This document shows, piece by piece, positions 1,710-6,095 of a DNA stretch of 64,000 bases. Position 1 is the first letter of the stretch. Each line of letters begins with the position of its first letter. Both the position numbers and the translations under genes were made by a program. Under the pieces are notes generated by a model. It was not told the origin of the DNA and searched no databases. It saw only the letters and a list, made by a program, of their open reading frames with translations. The stretch is from a virus, in the IMG/VR virus record IMGVR_UViG_3300027763_000043, positions 28,974 to 92,973 of that record. The stretch is one strand, 5' to 3'.

Positions 1710-3503
1710 TTATAACACTACATTATAATTAATTTGTGAATATAATGTATAGAAATTATCAGTATTTGATGATGGAATAAAAGGAACATCACTAGCAGCA
1801 CCAGTACTCAGTGGTTGCTGTTGTTGTGGAGTAGAAGATCCGGAAGGAGCATAAACTACATTTGGTTTTGGTTCAGGTTCTGGTCCAATATTAAATGGAA
1901 CAGTTTGCATTTTTGTTGTTTGTGCTGGAGTTATTTCTGGTGTAGAAGGTTTTGAAGAAGTTTCTGCTGGAGTAGTTGTTGATGTAGTAGAAGGTTTGGA
2001 TGAAGTTTCTGCCGTTTTTGGCATCTCTTTAGAAGGAACTGGTGATGTCTGATTTACTGGATCAGGTAATTTCATTTCTTTCCAATCATATCCTTTTGAT
2101 GTTGCCCAATCTTTTGCTTGCTGCTTTTCTTCAGAACTCATTTTATTCCAAGCGCCTTCTATTCTTCCTCTTGCCAAAGGATTATTTTTATATTGCCATG
2201 CCTGTTCAAACTGTTTTACTTTTGCAGGATCTGGTGCTTTTGGAGTTTCTGGTACTTTTGGAGTTTCTAATGCTTTTTGGGTATCTGGTGTTTTTTGAGT
2301 TTCTGGGGCATTGATCTGCAAATTACTTGCAGGGGGTGTCATAGAAGTTGTTGGAGCAGGTTTAGCAGTTGCTGGTTTTGGTGGTTCATCTTTTTTAAGT
2401 GGAGATGATGTAAGTTTATTTTTTTTATTTTTTTGTGCTTCTTCTTTTGCAACCTTAGCAATTGCTTCTGCCTGTTTTTTCTTTTTTGGATCTTCCCCGA
2501 ATAAATTACTACCAAATGCTTCTGCTATTTCATCAGCAAGAAATCCCGCACCGGCAGCCAATTTCACAAATTTTCCTGGACCAAGAAGAGTTGCTATTGC
2601 TAAAAGGGCATCAACATTTTCACCATTGAAATAATTCATTAATCCAGAAATTACAGTTACACCTTTAGAAATAGTACCTCCTATTCCTCCTCCTACTTTT
2701 GGTCCTTTAGGTCCTGTACCTTTAGGTGGTGTTGGAGTTCTACCAGGTAAAGCACCCCCCAATCCACGCATGACTGCCTGAAATGGTTTAATAATTAATC
2801 CACCAACTAAAAATTTTCCAATCTTTCCGACAAGTCCAGTAATAGTACTAATAACTTTAACTATACCAACATTGATAATAGTAAATACACCACCCGCAAT
2901 TAGTAGAGTTTTAATTACAGAATCTTTAATTTCATTTAGTTTCTTCGTATTGCCATCTTGAAGTGCCTTTAAGACATTAATTCCTTGAGTGGTTAACCAT
3001 CCACCAAGAAGTGTCATTACAAAACTCATCAAATTATTGAAACCAAATGATACCTTATCACCAATACGCTTTACTGGTTCTGATAAGGCACTCTGAATTT
3101 TAGTTTCTAATAAACCTTCTTGTCCTCCTCGTGCTCCAGATTCTGCTAATCTCTTTTGCTTCTCTTGTTCATAGAGATCCTTCTGCTTTTCTAATGCACT
3201 TTCACTTGCAGTGATTGTTGCAACCGATTGTAACGTATCACTAATTCCATTCAATTGAAGTCTAACACTATCTACTTGCGCCTGAAAACTTCCAATCTGA
3301 GTTAGATTAGAAAGTATTTGTGCATTAGTTTGTGATAATTGGTTTACTTGTTTCTGCAGGGATGCTACTGCAGAAGTATTTGCGTTTATTGCAGATTCCG
3401 TTTGTGGATCAACTTTATTTCCACCACCAAAAATACTTCCCGATACGGTACTCTGATTAATACCTGCAAGAGAATTAGAAAGTGGCGATGCTATAACAGC
3501 CAT
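1710..3503 (-). CDS. Probable tail tape-measure / baseplate hub protein
   Basis: This 597-residue protein has a Q/N/S-rich coiled-coil-like N-terminus (residues 30-135), a hydrophobic middle (FVMTLLGGWLTTQG, then LLIAGGVFTIINVGIVKVI and a Gly-rich stretch), a Lys-rich segment near 340-370 and a long Pro/Thr/Ser-rich C-terminus. It lies just after gp26 and the gp51-like ORF, where tail phages usually keep the tape measure. T4 gp29, the T4 tape measure, is about 590 residues, so the length fits. It shares a GD...F...LL.GWL pattern with the next gene, suggesting distant paralogy. I see no direct sequence similarity to gp29, so the role is an inference from position, length and composition. A late promoter lies at 3545-3552. 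Confidence 0.5.
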   Translation of the reverse strand: MAVIASPLSNSLAGINQSTVSGSIFGGGNKVDPQTESAINANTSAVASLQKQVNQLSQTNAQILSNLTQIGSFQAQVDSVRLQLNGISDTLQSVATITASESALEKQKDLYEQEKQKRLAESGARGGQEGLLETKIQSALSEPVKRIGDKVSFGFNNLMSFVMTLLGGWLTTQGINVLKALQDGNTKKLNEIKDSVIKTLLIAGGVFTIINVGIVKVISTITGLVGKIGKFLVGGLIIKPFQAVMRGLGGALPGRTPTPPKGTGPKGPKVGGGIGGTISKGVTVISGLMNYFNGENVDALLAIATLLGPGKFVKLAAGAGFLADEIAEAFGSNLFGEDPKKKKQAEAIAKVAKEEAQKNKKNKLTSSPLKKDEPPKPATAKPAPTTSMTPPASNLQINAPETQKTPDTQKALETPKVPETPKAPDPAKVKQFEQAWQYKNNPLARGRIEGAWNKMSSEEKQQAKDWATSKGYDWKEMKLPDPVNQTSPVPSKEMPKTAETSSKPSTTSTTTPAETSSKPSTPEITPAQTTKMQTVPFNIGPEPEPKPNVVYAPSGSSTPQQQQPLSTGAASDVPFIPSSNTDNFYTLYSQINYNVVL

Positions 3504-3625: not shown

Positions 3626-3649
3626 ATATTGCGGTTCAATAGAGTAGAA

Positions 3650-4264
3650 ATGTATTATACTTACGCATATTTGCGGGAAGATAGAACTCCCTACTACATA
3701 GGTAAAGGAAAAGATAATAGGGCATATGAAAAAAGAAGGAAAGGTATAAAACCACCAAATGATAAATTAAGAATAATACTATTAAAACAAAATCTTACTG
3801 AAGAAGAAGCATTTAGACACGAAATCTATATGATTTCTGTGTTTGGTAGAAAAGATTTGGGAACAGGTATTTTACACAATATGACTGATGGTGGAGATGG
3901 ATGTAGTGGTGCTATTCGTTCATTAGAATTCAAGGAAAATTTAAGAAATTTAAATAAAAATAAAGTTCTTTCAGAAGAACACAAAAGAAAAATAGGTGAT
4001 GCACAAAAGGGAGACAAAAATCATAATTATGGTAAGTCCTCCTCACCAGAAACTAGAGAAAAGATGAGTAAATCAAGAAGAGGTGAAAAGCACCATTCAT
4101 CTAACTGGTGGAAACTTACCTACACAACTGGAAATACAATTACGATATGTGGATTATCCATTTGGGCAAAGGAAAACGGTTATAATGTTGGTAATATTCA
4201 TAGTATTTACATGGGAAATAGAAAAAAACATAAAGATATCATAAAAGTTGAAAAATTAAAATAA
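3650..4264 (+). CDS. GIY-YIG homing endonuclease (free-standing, Seg-like)
   Basis: Starting at ATG 3650 the protein begins MYYTYAYLRE and continues PYYIGKGKDNRAYEK, the GIY-YIG nuclease core. The central part has NUMOD3-like DNA-binding repeats (SEEHKRKIGDAQKG, SPETREKMSKSRRG). The C-terminus (GLSIWAKENGYNVGNIHSI) looks like a helix-turn-helix NUMOD1-type element. An earlier TTG at 3629 is possible but lies outside the conserved core. It is on the strand opposite to the tail genes on either side and has its own late promoter. It probably cuts intronless or unoccupied sites to spread itself, as T4 seg nucleases do. Confidence 0.85.
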   Translation: MYYTYAYLREDRTPYYIGKGKDNRAYEKRRKGIKPPNDKLRIILLKQNLTEEEAFRHEIYMISVFGRKDLGTGILHNMTDGGDGCSGAIRSLEFKENLRNLNKNKVLSEEHKRKIGDAQKGDKNHNYGKSSSPETREKMSKSRRGEKHHSSNWWKLTYTTGNTITICGLSIWAKENGYNVGNIHSIYMGNRKKHKDIIKVEKLK

Positions 4265-4279
4265 AACGGAGATAATATT

Positions 4280-4453
4280 TTAACTTGACTGCTGATTTTT
4301 AAGATTTTCTTCTTCAATGTACTGTTGCAATAATGTAATATAAACTTCCTTTTCCCAAGGAATCATATCATTAATTTCTGTTAATGACCATTTATGGTGT
4401 TGCATCAAGGAAAAATTAGTTCTAAAGTATGACGCAAGATCATTGTGCGCCAT
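4280..4453 (-). CDS. 51: gp51-like small tail/hub assembly protein, possible -1 frameshift extension of gp26
   Basis: This is a 57-residue ORF with ATG at 4453, two bases after the gp26 stop. It has the pattern W.LTEINDMIPWEKEVYITLL and an acidic C-terminus. In T4 the gene after 26 is 51, which encodes a hub assembly catalyst (about 250 residues there). The IPWE..VY..LL motif also resembles the T domain of G/GT tail assembly chaperones. The ORF is in the -1 frame relative to gp26 and stays open upstream past the slippery site at 4462-4468. It may therefore be made as a fusion, from its own ATG, or both. The gp51 name rests on gene order; no clear similarity is visible. Confidence 0.6.
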   Translation of the reverse strand: MAHNDLASYFRTNFSLMQHHKWSLTEINDMIPWEKEVYITLLQQYIEEENLKNQQSS

Positions 4454-4455
4454 AC

Positions 4456-5175
4456 TTACACGAAAAAAGATGGAAGTCCCTCCAATACGACTTCACTTTC
4501 GACACCAGTATTAGGATTTTTAATTTGAATAAGATGAGAAAGTTTTGGCATCGTTTCAAAAAACTTCTCAATTTCCTTAAATTGCTTGGAACTTAATTGC
4601 TCAACAAATTCGGAAAGTTCTTTTTTAGAGCATTCACTTCCAACCCATGACTCTTCTTCAGAATACACTTGGTCAATACAAGCACAAATCAAGTCAAAAG
4701 ATTCATTAACACCAATTCCCTCTCCACTATTAAAATTGTTCTTAATGAATTCTGCCATAGAAGGATATTTCATTCTCATAGTCAAAGTATCATCCAACTT
4801 AATATCTCTCGAATGTCCTTCCTGATCTTGTACCATAATCTCATCCAAATTAATGCTGACAGGAACTTTTGTCACACCATCATCTGGACAAGTAATTAGT
4901 ACATCAACAGTCTCACCAACTGACTTGCCACGAATATTAAGGAACAAATATTCAATGTCAAATGTGGCAAGATCATCAATCTTAATTCCTTTACTTAAAA
5001 TACAGTTAGAAATTACTGTCTTAACTGCATTTGCAATTTGCTTACTATCCTCACTCTCCATTGCAATGATGAGGATCTTTTCTTCTTTAACTAAAAATGG
5101 CCTATATCTAATCTTTTTCTTTAATGATGGAATTTCCAACTCATAAATTGGAGTCGCAATCTTTGGTAAAGGCAT
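4456..5175 (-). CDS. 26: Baseplate hub subunit gp26
   Basis: This 239-residue protein has the T4 gp26 family pattern: N-terminal MPLPKIATPIYELEIPS, then KKKIRYRPFLVKEEKILIIA and a central LDDTLTMRMKYPSM segment. T4 gp26 is 208 residues. It acts in assembly of the baseplate hub. The gene ends CCA TCT TTT TTC GTG TAA, with a slippery run next to the stop, and is followed at once by the gp51-like ORF. A late box lies at 5202-5209. The T4 gene order 26-51 is kept. Confidence 0.85.
   Translation of the reverse strand: MPLPKIATPIYELEIPSLKKKIRYRPFLVKEEKILIIAMESEDSKQIANAVKTVISNCILSKGIKIDDLATFDIEYLFLNIRGKSVGETVDVLITCPDDGVTKVPVSINLDEIMVQDQEGHSRDIKLDDTLTMRMKYPSMAEFIKNNFNSGEGIGVNESFDLICACIDQVYSEEESWVGSECSKKELSEFVEQLSSKQFKEIEKFFETMPKLSHLIQIKNPNTGVESEVVLEGLPSFFV
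4462..4468 (-). promoter_or_regulatory. Candidate -1 ribosomal slippery site U_UUU_UUC
   Basis: In the gp26 zero frame the codons are TCT TTT TTC GTG TAA, giving the canonical X_XXY_YYZ heptamer. Slipping back one base after TTC reads CGT GTA AGT ATG and enters the 57-residue ORF without a stop. No pseudoknot was verified. Confidence 0.5.
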
Positions 5176-5201: not shown

Positions 5202-5209
5202 TATTTATG
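5202..5209 (-). promoter_or_regulatory. Late promoter before gp26
   Basis: The minus strand reads CATAAATA about 27 bases before the gp26 ATG, overlapping the end of gp54. Confidence 0.6.
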
Positions 5210-6095
5210 TTACAGTAAACCATCCACTAACGTTTTTAGATGTTGATGAATTGGAACGATTAGATGAACTTCTACCAGCATTGGCAGTATTGATGTCATT
5301 AACATTATTAATAGGTCCACCAATTCCTCTAGGTCTTGGATCATCCAATCTTCCAGTACCCTGATTAAGATTTCTCCACATTAATTCATCTCTTCCAGTT
5401 GCAAGTCTACCATTATTATTGGATGCATCTGCATAATTCGATGCTGTTATATTTTGAGGTTTCTTATTATTATCTCTTAGGTAACTTACATCCAAACTTC
5501 TAATAGAACCGCAAACATATCTTTCATAACTAAATGATGCGGTTACGGTCAATACTTGAGAATCATTGTATGCTATCGTTGGAGAATACATTGATGTTGG
5601 AAATAATCCGACAAAATTATATTCAATCTCATTATTATAATCACGGTCAAACTTCAAAATTCTAGTTGCATCTGTCTTATAATCTGCAGGATACTTCATC
5701 CTGAAAAAATATCCCTTATCGATAGAAATTGATCTAGATCCGCTAGCAATAAATTCTATCCAATGTTCTAAAAATTTAATCATTTTATATTCTTTATCAA
5801 CATAAAATGTTAAATCAATTGGAGTAAATATTCTAGTATGAGCCATCTTCTCAGTGACACCCGTAACATCACCAACAATATCAGCAGTTCCAAGAGAACT
5901 ACCTGGCAATGATGCAGAAGAGCACAACAATCCAGCATCTTCAACAACAAATCTCCAATCAACACCTCTCAAAGATAAGTGAGTTTGAAGAGGGGGTTGC
6001 AATCCCCCAAAAATTACTTGATAATGACTGGTTTGTGCCAGATTACCAAAAAGTGGTTTAATTTCTGATATTCTGCGAGGACGTGCTATGGACAC
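5205..6095 (-). CDS. 54: Baseplate tail-tube initiator gp54
   Basis: This 296-residue protein begins MSIARPRRISEIKPLF and has the tail-tube-like core LTFYVDKEYKMIKFLEHWIEFI and PTIAYNDSQVLTVTASFSYERY, matching T4 gp54 (about 320 residues). gp54 binds the baseplate with gp48 and starts tail tube polymerisation. The Ser/Asn-rich C-terminal tail (SSSNRSNSSTSKN) is low complexity. It is divergent from gp4, which starts 35 bases away, so they share a short promoter region. In T4, 48 and 54 are adjacent; here they are on opposite strands with gp4 and a hypothetical between. Confidence 0.85.
   Translation of the reverse strand: MSIARPRRISEIKPLFGNLAQTSHYQVIFGGLQPPLQTHLSLRGVDWRFVVEDAGLLCSSASLPGSSLGTADIVGDVTGVTEKMAHTRIFTPIDLTFYVDKEYKMIKFLEHWIEFIASGSRSISIDKGYFFRMKYPADYKTDATRILKFDRDYNNEIEYNFVGLFPTSMYSPTIAYNDSQVLTVTASFSYERYVCGSIRSLDVSYLRDNNKKPQNITASNYADASNNNGRLATGRDELMWRNLNQGTGRLDDPRPRGIGGPINNVNDINTANAGRSSSNRSNSSTSKNVSGWFTVT

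Follow-up and report, generated by a model that had tools for sequence, protein, structure and literature searches.

Organization of the gp26 junction

The window (the whole 64,000-nucleotide stretch of viral DNA that we analysed) encodes on its minus strand a gp26 protein whose profile matches to PF12322 (E=1.6e-73) and phrog_150 (E 2.4e-82) place the short form in the T4-like tail assembly chaperone (TAC) family, and it is the only PF12322 gene in the 93-kb record. Read on the minus strand, the gene end and the bases that follow are ...GGA CTT CCA TCT TTT TTC GTG TAA GT ATG GCG CAC.... The original prediction had picked out the terminal TCT TTT TTC GTG TAA, a slippery heptamer in zero frame near the gp26 stop and a -1 frame open into a 57-residue ORF, and all three are borne out: the first base of T_TTT_TTC lies 10 nt before the stop, and from U_UUU_UUC the -1 frame reads FF-RVS-MAHNDLASYF... 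until it stops at 4280. This downstream ORF, which we call the T ORF, belongs to phrog_634 (E 2.6e-28) and also matches phrog_150 at its end.

The junction lies between an upstream tail tube-type gene and an ORF that is tape measure-like by position, with a homing endonuclease gene intervening downstream of T (Table 1). The 597-aa ORF at the tape measure position has no Pfam match and only weak PHROG matches; in HTVC008M, a gene near the equivalent place is annotated as a putative tail tape measure. Contig L053 and P-SSM2 have a closed gap where the window carries the homing endonuclease gene.

Table 1. Features at and around the gp26 junction in the window, with window coordinates.
Feature	Position	Strand	Description
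Tail tube-type protein	5205-6095	-	Upstream neighbour; PF23849 6.4e-14; phrog_45 5.7e-37
gp26	4456-5175	-	239 aa, C-terminus ...EGLPSFFV; zero-frame product (TAC-N), G-like short form of tail assembly chaperone
GGAGGG, SD-like element	4478-4483	-	Candidate stimulator, 9 nt upstream of the heptamer
Slippery heptamer T_TTT_TTC	4468-4462	-	Zero frame; TTTTTTN in 192/195 dereplicated relatives
Zero-frame stop TAA	4456-4458	-	One codon past the heptamer
Downstream hairpin, 5' arm	4446-4456	-	AGTATGGCGCA; 5 nt past the heptamer; holds the ATG of the T ORF
Downstream hairpin, 3' arm	4426-4436	-	TGCGTCATACT; 9-nt loop between the arms
-1 frame from slip site	4280-4468	-	T-like C-terminal domain (TAC-C); 62 codons counted from the slip
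T ORF (database 'gp51')	4280-4453	-	57 codons; ATG at 4453-4451
Homing endonuclease gene	3629-4264	+	NUMOD3, weak GIY-YIG match; separates T from the tape measure-like gene
597-aa ORF	1710-3503	-	Candidate tape measure protein by position; next downstream in the gp26 direction
Long ORF	1708-2	-	Runs open to the window edge

The heptamer is conserved at the level of its bases

Among the nearest IMG/VR relatives, the exact T_TTT_TTC is in place and followed by an open -1 frame in 79 of 80, the exception being L053. A broader collection of 247 loci was dereplicated at 95% DNA identity to 195; it spans cyanophages, pelagiphages, and rhizobial phages, as well as single isolates from Aeromonas, Stenotrophomonas, Ochrobactrum, and Vibrio. 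A zero-frame TTTTTTN precedes the stop in 192 of these 195 (N is C in 169, T in 22, and G in 1), and the three that have lost it are the Vibrio phages K475 and D509 and contig L053. The T domain occupies the -1 frame in all 188 loci that are long enough to contain it, with the motif P[WFY]E in 187 and PWA in the remaining one (L107). The locus thus has the hallmarks of a programmed -1 frameshift site, a zero-frame X_XXY_YYZ heptamer ahead of the stop and a -1 frame that stays open and encodes a conserved domain. The expectation that heptamer and register would be kept in relatives holds for cyano-, pelagi-, rhizobial, Aeromonas, Stenotrophomonas, and Vibrio phages and fails for T4. Contig scans with gp26 of Vibrio D481 and with the Aeromonas gp26 found no locus.

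Several loci (L084, L094-L098, L104, L113, and others) have the zero-frame stop 31 nt after the first base of the heptamer, about eight codons further on. The zero frame there overruns the heptamer and overlaps the region that encodes T, which gives the short form an extra tail.

Both phenylalanines are nearly invariant in the family, and the heptamer might accordingly be nothing but conserved Phe-Phe coding with no role in recoding. Codon choice contradicts this: TTT TTC encodes the terminal Phe-Phe in 169 of 192 genes but only 10 of the 195 Phe-Phe pairs that lie inside these genes. Moreover, the preceding codon ends in T in 192/192, across Ser, Ala, Asp, Asn, Thr, and His (log10 P ~ -45 against the gp26 codon background, a value that overstates the evidence because related sequences are counted as separate, although the contrast is still very large). 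Zero-frame U6N occurs at only 31 of 44,930 other gp26 codon positions, compared with 192 of 195 gene ends. The heptamer is therefore conserved far beyond chance, with selection acting on the bases and not on Phe-Phe alone, and we give the coding-only explanation practically no credence.

The same run of six or seven T in nearly all relatives could also invite slippage by RNA polymerase, which would produce mRNAs with a base inserted or deleted, from which ordinary translation would make the fusion. Such transcriptional slippage is known on longer runs in bacteria, but the cited runs comprise nine A or T (PMC5009743), and here the run is closed at six by a C in 169 of 192 loci. The elements that flank the heptamer (described below), an SD-like sequence and a downstream hairpin, are moreover candidate stimulators of ribosomal slippage, and we consider a transcriptional origin of the fusion very improbable. 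Ribosomal frameshifting predicts a tryptic junction peptide that ends in ...SFFR, which would be NPNTGVESEVVLEGLPSFFR in the window and ENEVVLEGLQSFFR in P-SSM2.

Many relatives have no start codon for a separate T protein

A check of conservation among relatives had been proposed for the -1 frame, and besides the T domain it revealed many lineages without a T start codon. In 86 of 195 loci, none of the nine -1 codons that follow the slip, up to the beginning of the conserved SHxxLE stretch, is an ATG, GTG, or TTG, and 53 of these 86 also lack an ATG further into the first part of the T domain. Without an early start codon, these 86 relatives could hardly make T whole except by fusion.

The strongest competing explanation is that gp26 and T are two separate proteins, with the T ORF translated alone by termination-reinitiation at the nearby ATG (often arranged as stop-GT-ATG) and GGAGGG serving the coupling. 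An ATG indeed lies 2 nt past the stop in many relatives, K475 and D509 have a TAATG stop-start overlap and no heptamer, and a Shine-Dalgarno sequence near a gene end can act in coupling (PMC5009743). About half of the relatives have a plausible T start codon and could thus translate T separately. Against reinitiation stand the 86 loci with no start in the first nine -1 codons, 76% of which nevertheless have the SD-like motif, the conservation of the heptamer at the base level, and the fusion of T to the gp26-like part in both T4 gp51 and L053. In the window, the ATG of the T ORF sits inside the hairpin stem and has no SD at normal distance; the SD-like element is about 24 nt away from it, too distant for normal initiation. 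We judge reinitiation improbable as the general explanation and frameshifting the far better account.

An SD-like element and a hairpin flank the heptamer

Candidate stimulatory signals are present on both sides of the slip site. Upstream, a Glu codon followed by GGN lies 9 nt before the heptamer, and it is GAG in 109 of the 132 relatives that have Glu (83%), compared with a 30% background. GAGG or a similar SD-like 4-mer occurs at this place in 87% of relatives versus 9% of other gp26 stretches, and the motif is kept in 76% of the relatives without a T start codon.

Downstream, the minimum-energy fold of the window contains a hairpin with an 11-bp stem (z -3.6), evaluated against a null in which the -1 protein was recoded with synonymous codons and the protein sequence kept. 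The mean z of the folding energy is -3.07 over 67 sequences of the window's clade and approximately -1.4 in more distant groups, and a spacer of 5 nt separates heptamer and hairpin in the window, the range among relatives being 5 to 8 nt. Across 72 distinct sequences, 91.4% of the hairpin cells are paired, versus 26-42% when the arms are slid; 32 cells changed on both sides, which was reached by 0 of 500 shuffles. One pair (41-55) covaries (UA:38, GC:28, AU:2), and the Ala codon of the 5' arm tracks its 3' partner (GCG with GCG in 24, GCT with GAG in 37). The Ser codon of the 3' arm is TCA in 73 of 73 rows versus about 22% of Ser codons elsewhere.

Mapped onto the gp26 tree, one side of the covarying pair shows 10 changes, the other 11, and their joint state 12. 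Restricted to supported branches, the test is not significant (p 0.125, with few changes at the pair), so the covariation is suggestive, and block exchange of the junction could contribute to it. The RNAalifold consensus over all 70 columns recovers only five of the hairpin pairs, and the longer stem is backed by single-sequence folds, the synonymous null, and the pair counts. The hairpin is strong in the window's clade only, and it is absent in L002 and L008, both of which also lack the ATG. Four loci (L002, L003, L007, and L008) have a gp26 of the window's clade with a different junction, which lacks the T ATG and the hairpin and carries CCCTCTCCCAC like pelagiphage-type loci; this looks like recombination at the junction.

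T4-type phages have two genes in place of a slip site

The original prediction called the downstream ORF gp51-like. This is correct for the C-terminal part of T4 gp51 and not for the whole protein: the T profile matches gp51 C-termini (hhalign P 96%, E 2.4e-9), which establishes homology, and the match of T4 gp51 (249 aa) to phrog_150 covers positions 13-280 of 282, T part included. Since T4 gp51 is itself long and ends in the T domain, the downstream 'gp51' of the window corresponds to the C-terminal domain of gp51 only. T4 gp26 (208 aa) is a short form, and its gene ends in GAG TTC TTT GAG, without the slip site.

Copy numbers follow the same division. A single PF12322 copy is present in 14 of 14 searched records with the slip site, and two copies are present in 6 of 6 T4-type records without it. 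With two PF12322 genes and no slip site, T4-type phages would have one gene per product, 26 for the short form and 51 for the long form. From these sequence comparisons, T4 genes 26 and 51 are best understood as divergent paralogues, with gp51 an already fused long form.

Three genomes, K475, D509, and L053, have a single PF12322 copy and no slip site. In K475 (L085:3190-3405) and D509 (L093:3190-3410), a T-like ORF is kept that overlaps gp26 by TAATG, and the heptamer is missing; a second PF12322 gene that might compensate for the lost slip site was not found in these two records. In L053 (L053:3001-3894), gp26 and T are fused in one frame via a small deletion at the heptamer, the neighbouring genes are intact, and the 236-kb record has a single PF12322 gene.

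Comparison with known frameshifted genes

The slippery heptamer of lambda G/GT differs from U_UUU_UUC, and the short part is 239 aa here versus 140 aa in lambda. Lambda gpG/gpGT is placed between the tail tube and tape measure genes; the gp26 junction follows a tail tube-type gene, and the ORF beyond the homing endonuclease gene is tape measure-like by position. In both systems, the first ORF ends in a site where a -1 slip gives, or here would give, short and long forms (PMC5009743). Comparisons of lambda G with gp26 and of lambda T with the T domain each returned an hhalign P of about 0.1%, and with no sequence or fold link found, homology is not supported for either pair. The analogy with lambda is therefore functional and positional, and we assign the locus to the T4-like chaperone family.

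Searches of the PDB by sequence and by fold gave nothing significant, and the T domain has only weak, scattered matches in Pfam, with no match to the P2 E' family; the comparison between E' and T was made through Pfam families. The contractile-tailed phage P2 has an annotated -1 frameshift in gpE/E+E' just before its tape measure gene, and P2 is an older myovirus counterpart of G/GT. The proposal that T4 gp26/gp51 is the myovirus counterpart of G/GT thus stands as a functional and positional likeness; it needs correction in that T4 has no slip site, no homology to lambda was found, and P2 came earlier.

The arrangement of the junction resembles Escherichia coli dnaX, which also combines an upstream SD-like stimulator, a homopolymer heptamer, and a downstream stem-loop (PMC5009743). 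The heptamer is A_AAA_AAG in dnaX and U_UUU_UUC here, and the shift shortens the dnaX protein whereas it would extend gp26.

The AlphaFold model of the natural fusion in L053 (mean pLDDT 88.6) predicts a body of mixed alpha/beta structure, after which T forms three helices. Among viral predicted folds, a search with this model retrieved T4-type gp26/gp51 relatives and uncharacterised phage proteins. The latter include proteins of PaBG, phiRSL1, Motura, and Siphoviridae ctYh54 that match the chaperone fold (E 1e-7 to 2e-5), which makes them candidates for unrecognised tail chaperones on the basis of predicted structures.

A model for short and long forms of gp26

We consider it very likely that gp26 and the following ORF are one tail assembly chaperone gene that gives short and long forms by -1 frameshifting. 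The computed basis is sequence conservation, register, missing starts, RNA covariation, T-gp51 homology, and copy numbers; slipping itself, its rate, the binding partners, and the copy ratio are what we infer from these sequence data. In the proposed mechanism, gp26 and the next ORF would form a single gene for a tail/hub assembly chaperone, on which the majority of ribosomes would terminate one codon past the heptamer and release the short form. A minority would pause at the heptamer, held by SD-like pairing of GGAGGG behind and, in the window's clade, by the hairpin ahead, and the Phe tRNAs of these ribosomes would slip back one base on U_UUU_UUC into the -1 frame. The resulting long form would lack the final Val of gp26 and carry about 60 further residues. 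The probable binding target of either form is the tape measure protein; a partner from the tail tube or hub is probably recruited through the T domain. T4 would obtain the equivalent pair from the paralogous genes 26 (short) and 51 (long).

On balance we favour, with less assurance, the further idea that the junction is a three-part dnaX-type cassette, in which GGAGGG, U_UUU_UUC, and a hairpin that hides the T start would hold the short:long ratio fixed across diverse marine phages, while T4-type phages make both products from 26 and 51. Given the flanking candidate stimulators, the slip rate could be tested with a short reporter construct.

Relation to earlier work and annotation

Vladimirov, Gautam, and Davidson reportedly found frameshifting to be conserved in several T4-like groups, with T4 using 26 and 51. 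For T4-like phages, the core idea is already in print (Vladimirov, Gautam & Davidson 2022, Virology 566:9-15). Two later papers, on PRFect (PMC10885494) and on Adele (PMC12846349), cite this work. The Adele paper mentions poly-T sites within short-form genes of T4-like phages, and between them the two papers speak of poly-T frameshift sites in such genes or of separate short and long genes. We found no report of an SD-like element or a hairpin at the junction, the 2022 study being represented by its title and the papers that cite it, and these two elements and the environmental scale may be new. The present analysis adds the wide environmental survey, the base-level selection test, and the lineages without a start codon.

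T4 has long been stated as an exception to the conserved tail-gene frameshift (PMC5009743). With relatives of T4 predicted to slip from one gene where T4 has two, T4 gp26 and gp51 can be assigned a defined function, that of the short and the long tail chaperone. A consequence for annotation is that the T part should be joined to gp26; among the 60 matches listed from public cyanophage records, none has a name for a joined gp26-T feature. Some of these records list the T part as a gene of its own, named 'baseplate hub assembly catalyst', whereas others call it hypothetical or leave it unannotated (e.g., S-WAM1, ACG-2014d, and ACG-2014i).
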